Positions 16,193 to 31,318 of a stretch of DNA of 34,234 nucleotides are shown here, piece after piece. The position numbers and the translations under genes are program-made. This DNA is from a bacterium. GTDB lineage: Bacteria > UBA10199 > JADGCS01. Within the stretch, counting starts at the first letter, position 1, and each line of letters opens with the position of its first letter. Below the pieces are notes generated by a model, which worked only from the letters and a program-made list of their open reading frames with translations, had not been told where the DNA came from and ran no database searches. Location: NCBI GenBank assembly GCA_018812345.1, contig JAHJDR010000176.1:1-34234 (forward strand). The letters are read 5' to 3'.

Positions 16193-16210
16193 GGTTTTGA
16201 GTCACAATAC

Positions 16211-16238
16211 GCTAGACGCTAGACGCTAGACGCTAGAC
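16211..16238. repeat. Perfect 4x GCTAGAC heptad array
   Basis: Four identical 7-bp units are followed directly by the hflX stop codon (16240-16242, minus strand). It is the cleanest member of the GCTAGAC family seen at 17538, 24143 and 31291. Confidence 0.85.
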
Positions 16239-16239
16239 G

Positions 16240-24193: not shown

Positions 24194-27100
24194 TCAATAC
24201 CAAATTCTCCCCACAGCAGGTACTTCGGCATCTAAACTTTCACTATAAATCCATCCTGTATAGAGGATGCGATCATCAGATAAGATGCTTATGTTATTGA
24301 CACCTTCATTAACTGTATCGCCTACCTCAAAAATAACCGTGCCATTAGTACCAAATTGATAATTCAGCTGACCATTTGCTTTGTATTGTTGGATAACACG
24401 ATAGGTCTTGATGCCACCATCATTGGTGATACTAAACCCAGCCACAATCATTTTTCCACTGGACATAAAATCTAAACTCACAGCTTCAGCATTGCCACCA
24501 GCAATAGGATCTTTAATGACAAAGCCATTTATTCCAAAGGTTGTATCAAGTGTTCCATTTGGTAAGTAACGTGCGATAAGAAATAGTTTTGTTCCTGCTG
24601 TTGTATGGGTAGCCGTGCCACAAATGTAGATTTTATTATCGTAGATTTCAATGTCATCAATGATAGCACTGTGATGAGGTACTCCTGTAATGACCTTGCC
24701 ATTGAGGCCAAAAGAAAAATCCAAATTACCATCCTCTGAGTAGCGTGCGAGTATCAAGCGTTTTCTGCCAGCTACAAAATCAAAGCCACCAACGACAATC
24801 TTTTTATCGGTTTGAATGGCAACAGCTCTGGCTTCTTCTAATGCGCCAGGTGTGAAATTAAGCACGCGCAGGCCATCATTTCCAAAGGTTGTATCAAGTA
24901 CACCTTCAGTGGAATACCTGCTTATTGTTAGTGCCTGATCAGCATCAAGTTGGATATAACCGACACCGACAATATTGTTGCCTTGTTGTGCCATTGCCAT
25001 AAGGCGATTATTTTTTAGACCGATATCGTGTGCGTAAACGCCTATACCTCTAAAGGTTTCATCCAATGTCCCATCTGCATTATAGCGTGCTAAAAAAGCA
25101 TCTTCAGTAATGTCGCCACCATTGTCAATCTCAGCCCAACCACTAATAATAGTTTGGCCTGTAGTAGGTAGGTAAATCATGCCTGTGAGTTGTCCATTGT
25201 CACCTATGGAAGTCGTTGTATATCCTGTTTCCTCACCAAAATTTCCCATGAGATTTCCCGAACTGTTAAATTTGCTGATAAAGAAATCATTAGTTAATGT
25301 TGTGCCAGCTATAATAAAGGAGCCTCCATTTACCATTTTACCTGCTTGCGCTTGTCCTTTTATATTTAAAAAGGCTGTTCCATTATTATTTTTGAAATCA
25401 GGATCTGGTTGGCCATGAGCGGCAACGTAGATTGTGCCATCAGCTGTGTTTTTTTCTTGATCAGTAACACTGACTATGGCTGTGCCTGGGCTCATAGGTG
25501 CTCGGTAACTACCCGTAAACTCATTTATGTGACCAATTCCAGATTTGAGTTGAAATTTATAGGGTGGTCGTCCATCAACCCCTCTGATAGCAGTATTTGA
25601 GCCTTGACCGACATATATCCCTGTTGGAAATACATTTAATACATCAGGATTTTTGATAAGATCATTAGAAAGATTAAGCACGCCCACTTGATTGGGTTCA
25701 TCAGGCGCCAGCCGGTAGCGATAGGCTACGATATCGAGATTGAAATTTGAGGGTAGAGGGGCATGTCCAATTGTTATAAAATAGGTTTCCTCATCTTCCA
25801 AATCAAACATGCCAATCACAGGAGCTAAGGATCCTTCAGCTTGATTTGTTGTTGTTTGAAACGCTATGTAAGATAACTCATCATTTGATAATAGAAAGAA
25901 CTGTGATAAATTCATGCCCACATCAATAAGAGTTCGCGAACTATCTGTGTTTATGTTGACTTCACAAATATTATTAATGCCTGTTTCTGCATCTTCACAA
26001 TGGTAGTATATTAATTCGTTTCGTGCAGTGGGATTGCCCATGTAAGTAATACTTCTATTGATTTCTTTCCAATCTGTAACATCAGAGTCATAGCCATCAA
26101 GGATCTCTTCAAGGTTAGCTCTGATGAGATGATAATCATTACTAGTGTCTTTTCCAACAAGAATTATAGTGTACTGATTCATCCAATCAAAATCTAGTAT
26201 GGCAAAATCTATATCTTGATCTTCAAGAATAACATCCATGTGTTCATCTTTATCCACAAAATATATAACAGGAATAATACTATTTTCACCTGTGTAGGGG
26301 TTCAATCGACTGGCATTGTAGAGAATGTATTCACCTGAAGGATGAATTTTAAATATGGGTCGCTTTAGTGTCGTCTGCAAATCAATTTCTGTGATATCAC
26401 CTAATCCATTAACCTGATAAAAAATTTGCTCAGCATCAAAGAAATGTAGCTCATAGGGAGAACTAATCATTGACTGGGATAAAACAGACGTATCAATAAA
26501 GGGTTCTGGATACCCGCCAATAGCAGGTAGTGACCACAAAGCAGTTTGACCATTATCTTCGATTACAGAAAAAACAACTTCACTTTTCGGCAGTTCCCCA
26601 TCATCTTTATCAATGTTTAAAAAGGCCATACCGCGATCTTGTATATCAACCATGGCGTGAACTGATTCGTCGGAAAAGGTGATGTTGCTTGCATTCCACA
26701 CGTCAGAATCAACACCTGTAATAAATACATTAAACGTGTAATGCGGGATCAATGGGTGAGGTGGATTAATTTTCAGGAAAATGGGTGCACTCGCTTGGAT
26801 ATCATCAACGATTTCTTCAGAATCAGTGGCGACAAGAGCGACAATTTCTCCAATAAGAGATTCCTTAAATTGCAGTGTGAAAAGGCAATCCTGTGACAGA
26901 TTTGGCGTGAGAATATCAGTGGTTTTGCCTTTGTTATTGATTACGAGAATTTTGCCACATTTATTGTCAACACGATGGAAGAAGAATGTACCCACAATGG
27001 CTTCACTAGTGGGATTACCTCCTTTGCCGAGATATTTTGGTGCGCTAAGTTGTGGTGTTAGGCTTGCCTCTTGAAAAGAAACACTGGTGGCATCAATACC

Positions 27101-27316
27101 ATCTGTATTTTTGGCTATGGTAACGGGGATACTAATTGAATCCATGCCATAGGCTTCTGCGTCTTCGTATGTGATGGTCGCACTTTGATCAACTCCATTT
27201 AATGGATTACATGACATGGCCCCACCCACAGCCGCATCAGGTCCCACACATTGAGTTGTGGCGTTGAGCATGGAAAAAAGGATAAATATGAGTAAAAGAG
27301 TGCGCCTGAGTCGCAT
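24194..27316 (-). CDS. Large exported protein with C-terminal delta-60 repeats
   Basis: A 1040-aa exported protein. The N-terminus MRLRRTLLLIFILFSMLNA is a signal peptide. Cys23 follows but without a good lipobox (TTQC), so lipidation is uncertain. Residues about 200-560 resemble a beta-propeller-like region of repeated short strands, and an immunoglobulin-like segment may lie near 565-635. From about 640 to 1035 there are six or more delta-60 repeats, each ending in a phrase like NGTLDTTFGINGF (clear at 749-760, 804-815, 861-873, 919-931 and 981-992). Delta-60 repeats are common in large surface or secreted proteins of deltaproteobacteria; the function is not established. Convergent with recO, 14 bp apart. 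A TATAAT box lies so close to the ATG that the mRNA may be leaderless. Confidence 0.8.
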   Translation of the reverse strand: MRLRRTLLLIFILFSMLNATTQCVGPDAAVGGAMSCNPLNGVDQSATITYEDAEAYGMDSISIPVTIAKNTDGIDATSVSFQEASLTPQLSAPKYLGKGGNPTSEAIVGTFFFHRVDNKCGKILVINNKGKTTDILTPNLSQDCLFTLQFKESLIGEIVALVATDSEEIVDDIQASAPIFLKINPPHPLIPHYTFNVFITGVDSDVWNASNITFSDESVHAMVDIQDRGMAFLNIDKDDGELPKSEVVFSVIEDNGQTALWSLPAIGGYPEPFIDTSVLSQSMISSPYELHFFDAEQIFYQVNGLGDITEIDLQTTLKRPIFKIHPSGEYILYNASRLNPYTGENSIIPVIYFVDKDEHMDVILEDQDIDFAILDFDWMNQYTIILVGKDTSNDYHLIRANLEEILDGYDSDVTDWKEINRSITYMGNPTARNELIYYHCEDAETGINNICEVNINTDSSRTLIDVGMNLSQFFLLSNDELSYIAFQTTTNQAEGSLAPVIGMFDLEDEETYFITIGHAPLPSNFNLDIVAYRYRLAPDEPNQVGVLNLSNDLIKNPDVLNVFPTGIYVGQGSNTAIRGVDGRPPYKFQLKSGIGHINEFTGSYRAPMSPGTAIVSVTDQEKNTADGTIYVAAHGQPDPDFKNNNGTAFLNIKGQAQAGKMVNGGSFIIAGTTLTNDFFISKFNSSGNLMGNFGEETGYTTTSIGDNGQLTGMIYLPTTGQTIISGWAEIDNGGDITEDAFLARYNADGTLDETFRGIGVYAHDIGLKNNRLMAMAQQGNNIVGVGYIQLDADQALTISRYSTEGVLDTTFGNDGLRVLNFTPGALEEARAVAIQTDKKIVVGGFDFVAGRKRLILARYSEDGNLDFSFGLNGKVITGVPHHSAIIDDIEIYDNKIYICGTATHTTAGTKLFLIARYLPNGTLDTTFGINGFVIKDPIAGGNAEAVSLDFMSSGKMIVAGFSITNDGGIKTYRVIQQYKANGQLNYQFGTNGTVIFEVGDTVNEGVNNISILSDDRILYTGWIYSESLDAEVPAVGRIWY

Positions 27317-27352: not shown

Positions 27353-27497
27353 CCGAAATATAACCCCGTAACCCTATGATATTATTAGCCCCCAATTTAC
27401 AATCTATGAACACTAGGCAACTTTTGCTTCTTTTCTATGAACATGTTCTCAAATTGGAAGAACATTCATTTTCATTTATGTATTTTTCAATTTTCAA

Positions 27498-27571
27498 TTC
27501 GCAGTCCCACAGGGACTGCGAAAGTCCCAGTCCCAGTCCCATCGAGACTTAAGAGACACGAAATGGGACTG
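27498..27571 (+). promoter_or_regulatory. Hairpin, AGTCCC repeats and start-codon-sequestering inverted repeat of the calpain gene
   Basis: TTCGCAGTCCC (27498-27508) and GGGACTGCGAA (27512-27522) form an 11-bp perfect hairpin with a 3-nt loop. Three tandem AGTCCC units follow (27523-27540). The last continues as CAGTCCCAT (27534-27542), which is perfectly complementary to ATGGGACTG (27563-27571) covering the start codon. All elements are exact on inspection; a role in translation control is inferred. Confidence 0.6.
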
Positions 27572-28792
27572 ATAAAAAAAAATAAGACAAGTAAAATCAA
27601 CAAGATAAAAAATACGCAAGTTGGCATGACTCATGCTTTAGGTATGAGTATGAAAAACTTAACATCAAATATAATAAATAAGGCCAGAGATCTTTCTTTT
27701 AATCAGACAACAAATTACATCCATTATGAAGAAGCCCAGATGATGCGGCTTATTAAAGATCTTGTTGATCATATTCTCCAAGAGCCTCCTAAACAAGAGG
27801 TGAGTCTTAAACCAGGTAAGCCGCGTTTTGTCGTTCCCTACAATATTAATGACAAAGCCGCACAATATAAACCTTTGCCCTTTAGAGATGGTTTGCGAAA
27901 GTTTGAAACAGGTGATTTATCTGATCCAGAAGTAAAAAGTGAGCACAGAAATCAAAGTGGTTTATCCTATGAGAAAAAAACAGGTTCTCTTTTTGTGGAT
28001 GGTATTGATGTGTCTGACATTAAACAAGGGAGTGTTGGTGATTGCTATTTTTTAGCAGCATTGACTTCTATTGCAAACATACAGCCAGATTTTATCACAC
28101 AAAACATTCGTCAAAATACAGATAATACTTATACAGTAGGCTTTCACAAAATTAGCATACCCAGCAAACGCGTTCTCTATGATGAGAAAGGCCCCTATTA
28201 CCAAGCCATTCGTGAAACAGCTAAATACTGTATCGATAATGAGCTTCCTCAATGGTATGGAAATAATCTGTATGCACGTGGTGAAAATAGTGGTGAGCTT
28301 TGGGCAGCGCTTTATGAAAAGGCTTACGCAGCTTATAAAGGCGGAAGTTATGATGATATTAATGGAGGAACTATTGCAACAGCATATTTTGATTTACTGG
28401 GTGTCACGTCCAAAACCCATAAGCACCAAGGTAGTATTGAAACAACATTGTATAATACAATTCAAACAGCTTTAGATAATAAGAATCCTGTTGCTGTGGG
28501 TATTGGACCGGATGAAAATGGTGCCCATTTAAGTGAAGAGGGTCTTGTGTATAATCATGCCTATTCTGTTTTAGATGTTTTTGAGCAAGAGGGAGTCAAA
28601 TACATTACCCTGAGAAATCCCTATGGGTATCAGGAATGGAATGGCGATGGCGCTGATACAAAAAATGATGGTATCTTTAGCATGCCTTTTTCCGCTTATA
28701 AAGATAATTTCTATGAAACAACAATTGCTGATTATACAAAATATGATGGCATATACGATCCATACGCCCATCCAAAGTATCGGTTGAATTAA
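27563..28792 (+). CDS. Calpain-like (C2 family) cysteine protease
   Basis: A bacterial calpain-type papain-fold protease of 409 aa from ATG 27563. The catalytic Cys161 lies in KQGSVGDCYFLAAL (the Q of the oxyanion hole and the GDC motif are both present). GELWAALYEKAYA matches the calpain EKA motif. His332 sits in NHAYSVLDV and Asn352 in LRNPYGYQEWNGD, completing the triad. There is no EF-hand and no signal peptide; the N-terminal 60 residues are Lys-rich. Substrates are unknown. The frame is open from 27437, but the codons before 27563 run through a hairpin and AGTCCC repeats, so I treat them as 5' leader. Only AAGAGA precedes the ATG. The neighbour downstream is the TGA-interrupted beta-rich protein; a functional link is possible but unproven. 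Confidence 0.85.
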   Translation: MGLIKKNKTSKINKIKNTQVGMTHALGMSMKNLTSNIINKARDLSFNQTTNYIHYEEAQMMRLIKDLVDHILQEPPKQEVSLKPGKPRFVVPYNINDKAAQYKPLPFRDGLRKFETGDLSDPEVKSEHRNQSGLSYEKKTGSLFVDGIDVSDIKQGSVGDCYFLAALTSIANIQPDFITQNIRQNTDNTYTVGFHKISIPSKRVLYDEKGPYYQAIRETAKYCIDNELPQWYGNNLYARGENSGELWAALYEKAYAAYKGGSYDDINGGTIATAYFDLLGVTSKTHKHQGSIETTLYNTIQTALDNKNPVAVGIGPDENGAHLSEEGLVYNHAYSVLDVFEQEGVKYITLRNPYGYQEWNGDGADTKNDGIFSMPFSAYKDNFYETTIADYTKYDGIYDPYAHPKYRLN

Positions 28793-28869
28793 TGACAATT
28801 GACAATAGGCAATAAGCGATTTGCGATTTAAATTGCCGATAGCCAATTGTCATTTGCTTATTGTCAATC
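28793..28869. repeat. Self-complementary heptad array (TGACAAT family)
   Basis: TGACAAT, TGACAAT, AGGCAAT, AAGCGAT and TTGCGAT (28793-28827) are followed by GCCGATA, GCCAATT, GTCATTT, GCTTATT and GTCAATC (28835-28869). The second half is the reverse complement family of the first. An imperfect long hairpin is expected; it may also act as a transcription barrier after the calpain gene. Confidence 0.75.
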
Positions 28870-28897
28870 ATGAACATTGTTATCATTCCTGTTATAG

Positions 28898-29093: not shown

Positions 29094-29158
29094 ACGATCG
29101 GGTAAAATTGTTAGCAACATATCATGTTTAATTTCGATAATATGTAAGGAGTAAGGAT

Positions 29159-30310
29159 ATGTCACAAATAGTTCTACAGCCAAATCAGGCGCCACTAACA
29201 GGTCAGGAAATGGAATACCTGGGTTATGATGTCTCGCGAAATGACATCATTGGGGTTCCTGAGCTCAAAAAGTCAGGTCAACTCGATGAATTTGTTTCCC
29301 GTTATCTTTACACAGAAGATACAGGCATTGCTTTATTTTATGCCCAGAGATCTACAGTACAACTTGAAGGCAAGATTAAAAAACTCATCAAAGAAATACT
29401 TTCAGGTTGGGAACAAAATCCAGAGACGATAACTAAAACATGGGGTTTTGATGAAAGTGATATTAGCCGCTTTCAAAAATGGCTCGATAATGGATTGAGC
29501 AATGCTTTGGATACTGTAGAGAATGAAGATTTATTTTTGTCCAAAAGCGATTATGTGACTTATGCCAGTAGTGAGGACAAACCTATTCGTAAAAGTCGTC
29601 TCGAAACTATTGGTAAGCTTGATGAGTTTATTGGTTTATACATTCGCACTAAACGCTATGTCCCAGAAAGAACTGACAAGTACTATGATAGCAAGCTTGA
29701 TAATGGTTTGCGTTATCAAATCAGGGACTACCTTCTCATTCTCGTCGGTGAAGATGATTTTGCCAAACAGTCACTAACCCAACAGTTAGGTCTCAATCAA
29801 AGTGATGTACATAAGTATCTTTTTCAAGAATGGCTCTTAACAGATTTTAATCTTGATTCTATTTCTGTATATGGTGGCTTTAATTTTGATATGGGTCAAA
29901 GTCTTTCCTATGGTGATGAAATCGATGCTGACGGTGATCTTACCTATATTTACGATGTTGATGAGAACAATGCGAGCGCGGGCATTGAAGCTGAGATTCA
30001 TGGTCAAAAGACACTTGGAAAAGAGGGGTTTATTAGAGGAGAGCTTGGCGTTGAAGGAGAACCCATTGCTGTTGTTGAGCGCTATGAAACTGTGAGATCA
30101 TTGGGGGAAGGTGATGAAATAGAAGAACCAGAACTAGAAACTGTGCGTTCTGCTGGTGTAAATGTTGATGGCGAACTCCAAATTGGTCGCATAGATGGTA
30201 AAGTGGAATTTGAGGTTGGCGCTGGGGGTAACTTTGATTTTCATGACATGCCGAATGAAGATGTGCAAAGCTTTGATGTGGAAGCTGAATTTGATGCCAA
30301 TGATTTCTGA
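29159..30310 (+). CDS. Unknown protein, N-terminal part of a TGA-interrupted frame
   Basis: I do not recognise a family. The start is secure: AAGGAG lies just before ATG 29159. There is no signal peptide. Residues 34-115 and 147-230 are two copies of one helical domain; compare PELKKSGQLDEFVSRYLYT with SRLETIGKLDEFIGLYIRT, each followed by a G-(F/L)-x-x-SD(I/V) segment and WL. From about 235 the sequence turns into acidic, beta-strand-rich repeats (SVYGGFNFDMGQSLSYGDE and similar). The frame ends at TGA 30308-30310, but the same frame continues open, with the same composition, to 31252. It may be a disrupted gene, a gene with stop-codon readthrough, or a true short form. Confidence 0.6.
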   Translation: MSQIVLQPNQAPLTGQEMEYLGYDVSRNDIIGVPELKKSGQLDEFVSRYLYTEDTGIALFYAQRSTVQLEGKIKKLIKEILSGWEQNPETITKTWGFDESDISRFQKWLDNGLSNALDTVENEDLFLSKSDYVTYASSEDKPIRKSRLETIGKLDEFIGLYIRTKRYVPERTDKYYDSKLDNGLRYQIRDYLLILVGEDDFAKQSLTQQLGLNQSDVHKYLFQEWLLTDFNLDSISVYGGFNFDMGQSLSYGDEIDADGDLTYIYDVDENNASAGIEAEIHGQKTLGKEGFIRGELGVEGEPIAVVERYETVRSLGEGDEIEEPELETVRSAGVNVDGELQIGRIDGKVEFEVGAGGNFDFHDMPNEDVQSFDVEAEFDANDF

Positions 30311-30427
30311 ACCTCAGGCACTGCCTTTGGAGCTTCTTTTGAGCACGAACAAAACTTTTACAATCCTCCCGCGGAAGAGGATGTTGACGAATATTATCAA
30401 GCGCATTCGGAAGAAACTGCTGTTGAT

Positions 30428-31252
30428 GTGGATATGGAATATACAAATCCACAGGATGTGCGCATTACAGGATCCTATGACTTTGATCGTGATGAGAGTA
30501 AAAAATATTATCGTCAAGAGGAAGAACAAACCCATCGTGGTGCTGTGAGTTTGCACGTGCCGCTCACACAAGATGATGAAAAAAGAAATCATACGCTTGA
30601 TGTAACTGTCAGTGCTAAACACAGAACGCGTGATAAATATAGATCTGACTTAGAGGCTCGTTATCAACAAACGCGACATTCAGCGGCACTTTATACAGGA
30701 TTAAATTTGGATTTGCATGATGACTTTTCCATGACAATGGCTGCCTATGGACAAGTAATGAAATCGGAAGGAAGCCAAGAATATGTGATGCCCTACGTTG
30801 AAGGAACTTTATCATTAGATTACACACCTGGAAAATTTAGTTTGGGTTCTGAGGTTACGGTAGGTGGTGATTGGGGAAATGTTACTTACAATGATTTGAG
30901 TTATTCGGGCATTGATGATTCGTATTTAGCAGAGCTACCCACAAGAAGTGAGTATTTTAATGCCAATGCTTCTCTGCGGATGAGCTATGCTCCACGCGAT
31001 TTCTTGAGCTTCAGTCTCAGTGGTTGGGGTGGCTATGAAATGTCGCAGAGCTATCAAGATCATAATCATATGTGGGTGGGCGCCAGAACTTCTTATGGGA
31101 TGCGCCTAGCCCAGAAAAAGCATGCCGACTGGCTCTCCTGTTATGTTTCCTACAGCTACTATAATGGTGATTCGATCAATTATATTGATTTAATAGATAA
31201 TTGGCATGGACACTCAGTAAGCGGTGGTTTGAGTTATGAACGAAAATTTTAA
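30428..31252 (+). CDS. Beta-barrel-like C-terminal part of the TGA-interrupted frame
   Basis: This is in the same reading frame as the gene at 29159, and codons 30311-30427 between the TGA and this first ATG are also open and of the same acidic character. The protein is built of alternating amphipathic strands (RHSAALYTGLNLDLHDDFSM, NASLRMSYAPRDFLSFSLSG). It ends in YERKF, a C-terminal Phe as in outer-membrane barrels. ATG 30428 has no Shine-Dalgarno, so independent translation is doubtful; I regard this as the distal half of one protein of about 696 residues. No homologue is named. Confidence 0.55.
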   Translation: MDMEYTNPQDVRITGSYDFDRDESKKYYRQEEEQTHRGAVSLHVPLTQDDEKRNHTLDVTVSAKHRTRDKYRSDLEARYQQTRHSAALYTGLNLDLHDDFSMTMAAYGQVMKSEGSQEYVMPYVEGTLSLDYTPGKFSLGSEVTVGGDWGNVTYNDLSYSGIDDSYLAELPTRSEYFNANASLRMSYAPRDFLSFSLSGWGGYEMSQSYQDHNHMWVGARTSYGMRLAQKKHADWLSCYVSYSYYNGDSINYIDLIDNWHGHSVSGGLSYERKF

Positions 31253-31290
31253 CATTTGATTTATATTAAGCAATTTGCTTACCTTCTTAC

Positions 31291-31318
31291 GCTAGTCGCT
31301 AGTCGCTAGTCGCTAAAC
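31291..31318. repeat. GCTAGTC heptad array before the AbgT-family transporter
   Basis: GCTAGTC x3 then GCTAAAC run with a 7-bp period, ending 4 bp before the AGAGGTG ribosome-binding site region of the next gene. It is a variant of the GCTAGAC family. Confidence 0.8.

Follow-up and report, generated by a model that had tools for sequence, protein, structure and literature searches.

The open reading frame at positions 29159-31252 of the forward strand is very probably a single gene interrupted by one nonsense TGA, which would have arisen either by a recent mutation or through an error in a consensus base. The window, that is, the whole stretch of 34,234 nucleotides that was analysed, contains the frame near its 3′ end, and the frame is open save for a single TGA (30308-30310), as a previous sequence-only reading of this DNA had described; the TGA separates 383 from 313 sense codons (696 in all). 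The features referred to below are listed here with their basis; L157 denotes a locus in another genome (G030) of the same class but of a different family.

29146-29151, + strand: ribosome-binding site AAGGAG, read directly from the sequence and a good site for the ATG at 29159
29159-30307, + strand: gene part before the TGA, 383 codons from the ATG at 29159 (frame reading, codon bias)
29189-29524, + strand: N-terminal helical domain, copy 1 (internal repeat, match to L157)
29525-29863, + strand: N-terminal helical domain, copy 2 (internal repeat, match to L157)
29864-30307, + strand: strand-rich region before the TGA (enrichment in amphipathic 10-mers)
30308-30310, + strand: interrupting in-frame TGA, next base A (sequence)
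30311-31249, + strand: gene part after the TGA, 313 codons, last residue Phe (codon bias, match to L157)
30428-30436, + strand: first in-frame GTG (30428) and first ATG (30434) downstream of the TGA (sequence)
31250-31252, + strand: TAA, the normal terminus of the long frame (sequence)

The coding signal runs across the TGA. The probability that the 313 codons downstream remain open by chance is ~3e-9 (calculated from a window stop-triplet frequency of 0.060 over all positions), and over the same stretch 19 stops interrupt one of the remaining forward frames and 34 the other. Besides the TGA, no second disabling change, whether stop or frameshift, is present across the 696 codons. In-frame codon bias is +0.37 over the 40 codons leading up to the TGA; the next 40 codons score +0.27, and the best alternative frame scores about -0.15 in both blocks. 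To place these values in context, 40-codon blocks were scored on either side of every stop that parts two open segments in one frame, each 60 codons or longer; the sample of 82 sequences and 670,344 bases comprises the window and 81 genome stretches (100 fetched, 19 all-N stretches dropped) and covers about 22% of the genome. The TGA at 30308-30310 ranks first among 144 such junctions, with a score of 0.43; the runner-up (0.24), where a start is possible within 4 codons, resembles an ordinary junction between genes. A smaller survey (442,518 bases, 90 junctions) returned the same ranking. Another junction, at L122, where the first start comes late, was rejected on its poor coding scores. Near a contig end, on the minus strand at position 11065 of L150 (G000:C241:31065), a TAA parts 127 codons from 250, and 49 codons pass before the first start; this is possibly a second in-frame interrupted gene of the same genome and, if real, would imply that TGA is not the only stop codon by which genes of this genome are interrupted.

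The same measurements bear on whether the locus encodes two proteins, the downstream part being started at the GTG at 30428 or the ATG at 30434. Possible starts are indeed present, the earliest lying 39 codons downstream of the TGA, but the 40 codons ahead of them already carry coding bias (+0.27 versus -0.16), at the usual spacing neither start is preceded by a convincing ribosome-binding site, and neither part of the protein has a signal peptide, which together make a split gene very unlikely. The sequence-only reading had named 30428 as the first ATG after the stop; that codon is in fact a GTG, and an in-frame ATG first occurs at 30434; the remark on the missing ribosome-binding site applies to both.

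The protein that the uninterrupted gene would encode appears to be lineage-restricted; in it, a tandem pair of helical domains precedes a strand-rich, barrel-like region, and the TGA falls within the latter. Residues 1-235 comprise a domain of ~100 residues in tandem duplicate (local alignment score 77; the best of 1000 shuffles scored 50), the two copies sharing 24% identity (alignment A1). AlphaFold predicts these N-terminal domains to be helical at low confidence; run without relatives, it gave unusable models both for the read-through protein (pLDDT 30) and for its N-terminal part (pLDDT 38). The sequence on both sides of the stop had been described as rich in β-strands; the fraction of amphipathic strand-like 10-mers is 0.424 versus 0.105 in shuffles for residues 231-383 and 0.207 versus 0.098 for residues 385-697, the enrichment in the last 157 residues taken alone being marginal (p 0.076).

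Outer-membrane barrels usually end in a C-terminal aromatic signature with an alternating register. At the end of the long form the alternate positions read V-G-L-Y-R-F, which is near that usual ending, whereas the short form ends in D-E-E-D-N-F and has no proper barrel end. The long form combines amphipathic strand-like segments with this C-terminal signature, and the outer-membrane-like terminal Phe of the sequence-only reading is real and in the usual register. No N-terminal Sec signal peptide is recognisable in the hydropathy of the first 40 residues, either in the read-through protein or in its relative L157: the highest 11-residue values are 0.34 and 1.01, respectively, versus 3.0-3.2 in three exported proteins of the window. 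From its sequence, the C-terminal strand-rich region can be described as barrel-like, with the outer membrane only a candidate location.

Database searches returned few relatives. No relative of either half was found in Pfam, NCBIfam, PHROGs or the PDB, and half-protein queries of 46 genomes of the phylum gave nothing convincing (three weak matches, E 0.004-0.06). One weak half-protein match outside the window's genome, L004, proved on full reading to be an OmpA-like protein. Nor did a convincing homologue emerge when a collection of genome contigs was searched with the post-TGA part, plasmids and viral contigs with the single halves, or phages with the pre-TGA part. A profile built from the two N-terminal copies (A1) retrieved from the 46 phylum genomes the gene itself and four weak matches outside its genome. 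Three of these were dropped by eye, L155 and L156 because their frames read like histidine kinases and L158 because its frame reads unlike the query protein. The fourth, L157 (E 0.028), lies within an uninterrupted frame of 535 aa (L157 184-1791).

The L157 protein resembles both sides of the interruption. Copy 1, together with an NQAPL-like start region, matches it with a score of 81 (shuffle maximum 56, 0/1000) and copy 2 with a score of 50 (shuffle maximum 47, 0/1000). Downstream of the TGA, homology takes the form of one local match, over residues 405-498 (score 71, shuffle maximum 64, 0/1000). The strand segment running from the helical domains up to the TGA gives no significant match (score 40, equalled by 240/1000 shuffles), and the strand region taken as a whole scores 71, reached by 1/1000 shuffles. 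Like the window protein, that of L157 has an N-terminal helical domain and a strand-rich C-terminal region ending in Phe, and lacks a signal peptide; read backwards at alternate positions its C terminus gives F-L-A-L-T-I, the same kind of end as in the long form. It differs in having a single copy of the N-terminal domain, where the window protein has two, and in having no interrupting stop. Since pieces from before and after the TGA both occur in one continuous L157 gene, the two halves are parts of a single gene, and the proposal of one coherent protein is borne out by this continuous relative as well as by the continuous codon bias. Judged by sequence, these proteins would form an undescribed family, in which a helical N-terminal domain, present in two copies here and in one in L157, is joined to a barrel-like C-terminal region.

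The genomes available for comparison number one in the genus, which is that of the window itself, two in the family and eight in the order; in the 7 order members other than this genome, synteny around AbgT yielded no neighbour. Comparison with homologues for a sense codon at the TGA, as had been recommended, succeeded in part: L157 is continuous and without a stop, but it is too distant to be aligned at that site, and no close homologue with a sense codon at the exact position was found among these genomes.

A second group of explanations assumes that UGA is decoded. The most general of them, that TGA is an amino-acid codon in this lineage, has nothing in its favour besides the TGA at 30308-30310 itself. 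TGA terminates 53 of the 262 long stop-ended frames in the sample and 6 of the 21 window genes (those taken as real among 43 listed open reading frames), in agreement with the earlier statement that it is an ordinary stop elsewhere in the window. A contig edge cuts off a protein of which 130 residues remain; this fragment is closest to release factor 2 (208 bits versus 126 for release factor 1), and its truncation keeps it below the full-length cut-off. In the sampled 22% of the genome no further TGA-interrupted gene stood out. None of the 27 tRNA matches, a plainly incomplete set, has a UCA anticodon. The tRNA-Trp carries a CCA anticodon on a stem with five pairs in its predicted fold and, by reading of the sequence, a G at the Hirsh suppressor position, and is thus neither the four-pair nor the Hirsh type of PMC13092985. 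Neither feature of a UGA-to-Trp code, namely a tRNA with a UCA anticodon or an altered tRNA-Trp, and a TGA unused as a stop, was found with this incomplete tRNA set, and recoding in the lineage can be practically discounted.

Selenocysteine insertion would call for both selB and tRNA-Sec. In this genome, which is 97% complete, no selB exceeds the cut-off (best 186 bits versus 242 required) and neither does any tRNA-Sec; the eight tRNA-Sec matches to which loci were assigned prove to be ordinary tRNA genes for Ser, Leu, Tyr, Trp and Lys.

Programmed or selected readthrough would yield a 383-residue form together with a low-level 697-residue form, probably by way of near-cognate tRNA-Trp. It would accord with the intact remainder of the frame, and continuous codon bias would be expected equally if the TGA were read through. 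PMC5289835 describes UGA followed by A as prone to misreading by tRNA-Trp in E. coli, and trace readthrough at this UGA-A is possible. Against this, TGAA is also the commonest tetranucleotide at ordinary TGA ends in this genome (21/53), the 100-base stretch that follows the TGA folds no more stably than shuffled versions of it (z 0.39), no Rfam family matches the TGA region, and selenocysteine machinery above cut-off is lacking. The TGA lies inside the strand-rich region, leaving the short form without a proper barrel end, and L157, distant and the sole relative found, has no such stop. The reading of UGA by tRNA-Trp, including the type with a four-pair anticodon stem (PMC13092985), offers a likeness in that an in-frame UGA is followed by coding frame; the differences from the UGA-by-tRNA-Trp systems covered there are that the tRNA-Trp of this genome has a five-pair stem and that TGA serves as a stop. 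We consider programmed readthrough improbable, and a version in which selection keeps a leaky UGA-A so that a barrel-like protein, from a family absent from the family libraries and lacking a signal peptide, is made in a soluble short form alongside a rare long one, very improbable. Among the three options of the sequence-only reading, a nonsense mutation and a sequence error both stand, and programmed readthrough is unsupported beyond the leaky UGA-A context.

A single gene carrying one nonsense TGA accordingly remains the preferred explanation. A premature stop with coding frame on either side and an uninterrupted homologue resembling both sides, although not alignable at the exact site, are what is expected of a nonsense pseudogene. 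The TGA would be a recent mutation in the population that was sequenced, or else the assembly, which is fragmented (435 contigs), would have a wrong consensus base there; the sequence fits both equally and cannot separate them, and we lean slightly towards a true nonsense mutation. The event is taken to be recent because no second disabling change has accumulated. As written, this copy would give only a 383-residue fragment ending inside the strand-rich region, which is presumably non-functional. A survey of bacterial pseudogenes lists ~7,000 candidates in 64 genomes (PMC522871). Pseudogenes with a single nonsense codon resemble the present case, in which one stop breaks a frame that is otherwise intact; here, the family is nameless and its loss is not tied to a known function. 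The finding of a stop codon is as such ordinary. A mildly useful by-product is the recognition, in this class, of an undescribed family that lacks a signal peptide and carries duplicated N-terminal helical domains ahead of a barrel-like region; if conservation of the TGA were shown, the gene would stand as a rare example of chromosomal readthrough in bacteria.

The surroundings of the gene show several further features. Seven-base units (ACGCTAG, CGCTAGT, GTCTATC, AACGGAA and others) form many short tandem arrays between genes, at 16209-16239 and 31290-31315 of the window and in ten other places, and repeats of seven bases also rank among the commonest 14-mers of the sampled contigs. Upstream, positions 27437-28792 hold a bacterial gene that matches the calpain cysteine protease family (Pfam PF00648, E 8e-35), and the minus strand at 24194-27316 encodes an exported 1040-aa protein with delta-60 repeats (TIGR02608, E 2.4e-42). 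The intergenic stretch at 28793-28870 resembles an inverted repeat, TGACAATTGACAATAGGC ... GCCAATTGTCATTTGCTTATTGTCAAT; its first 13 bases are found again in L070 and L073.
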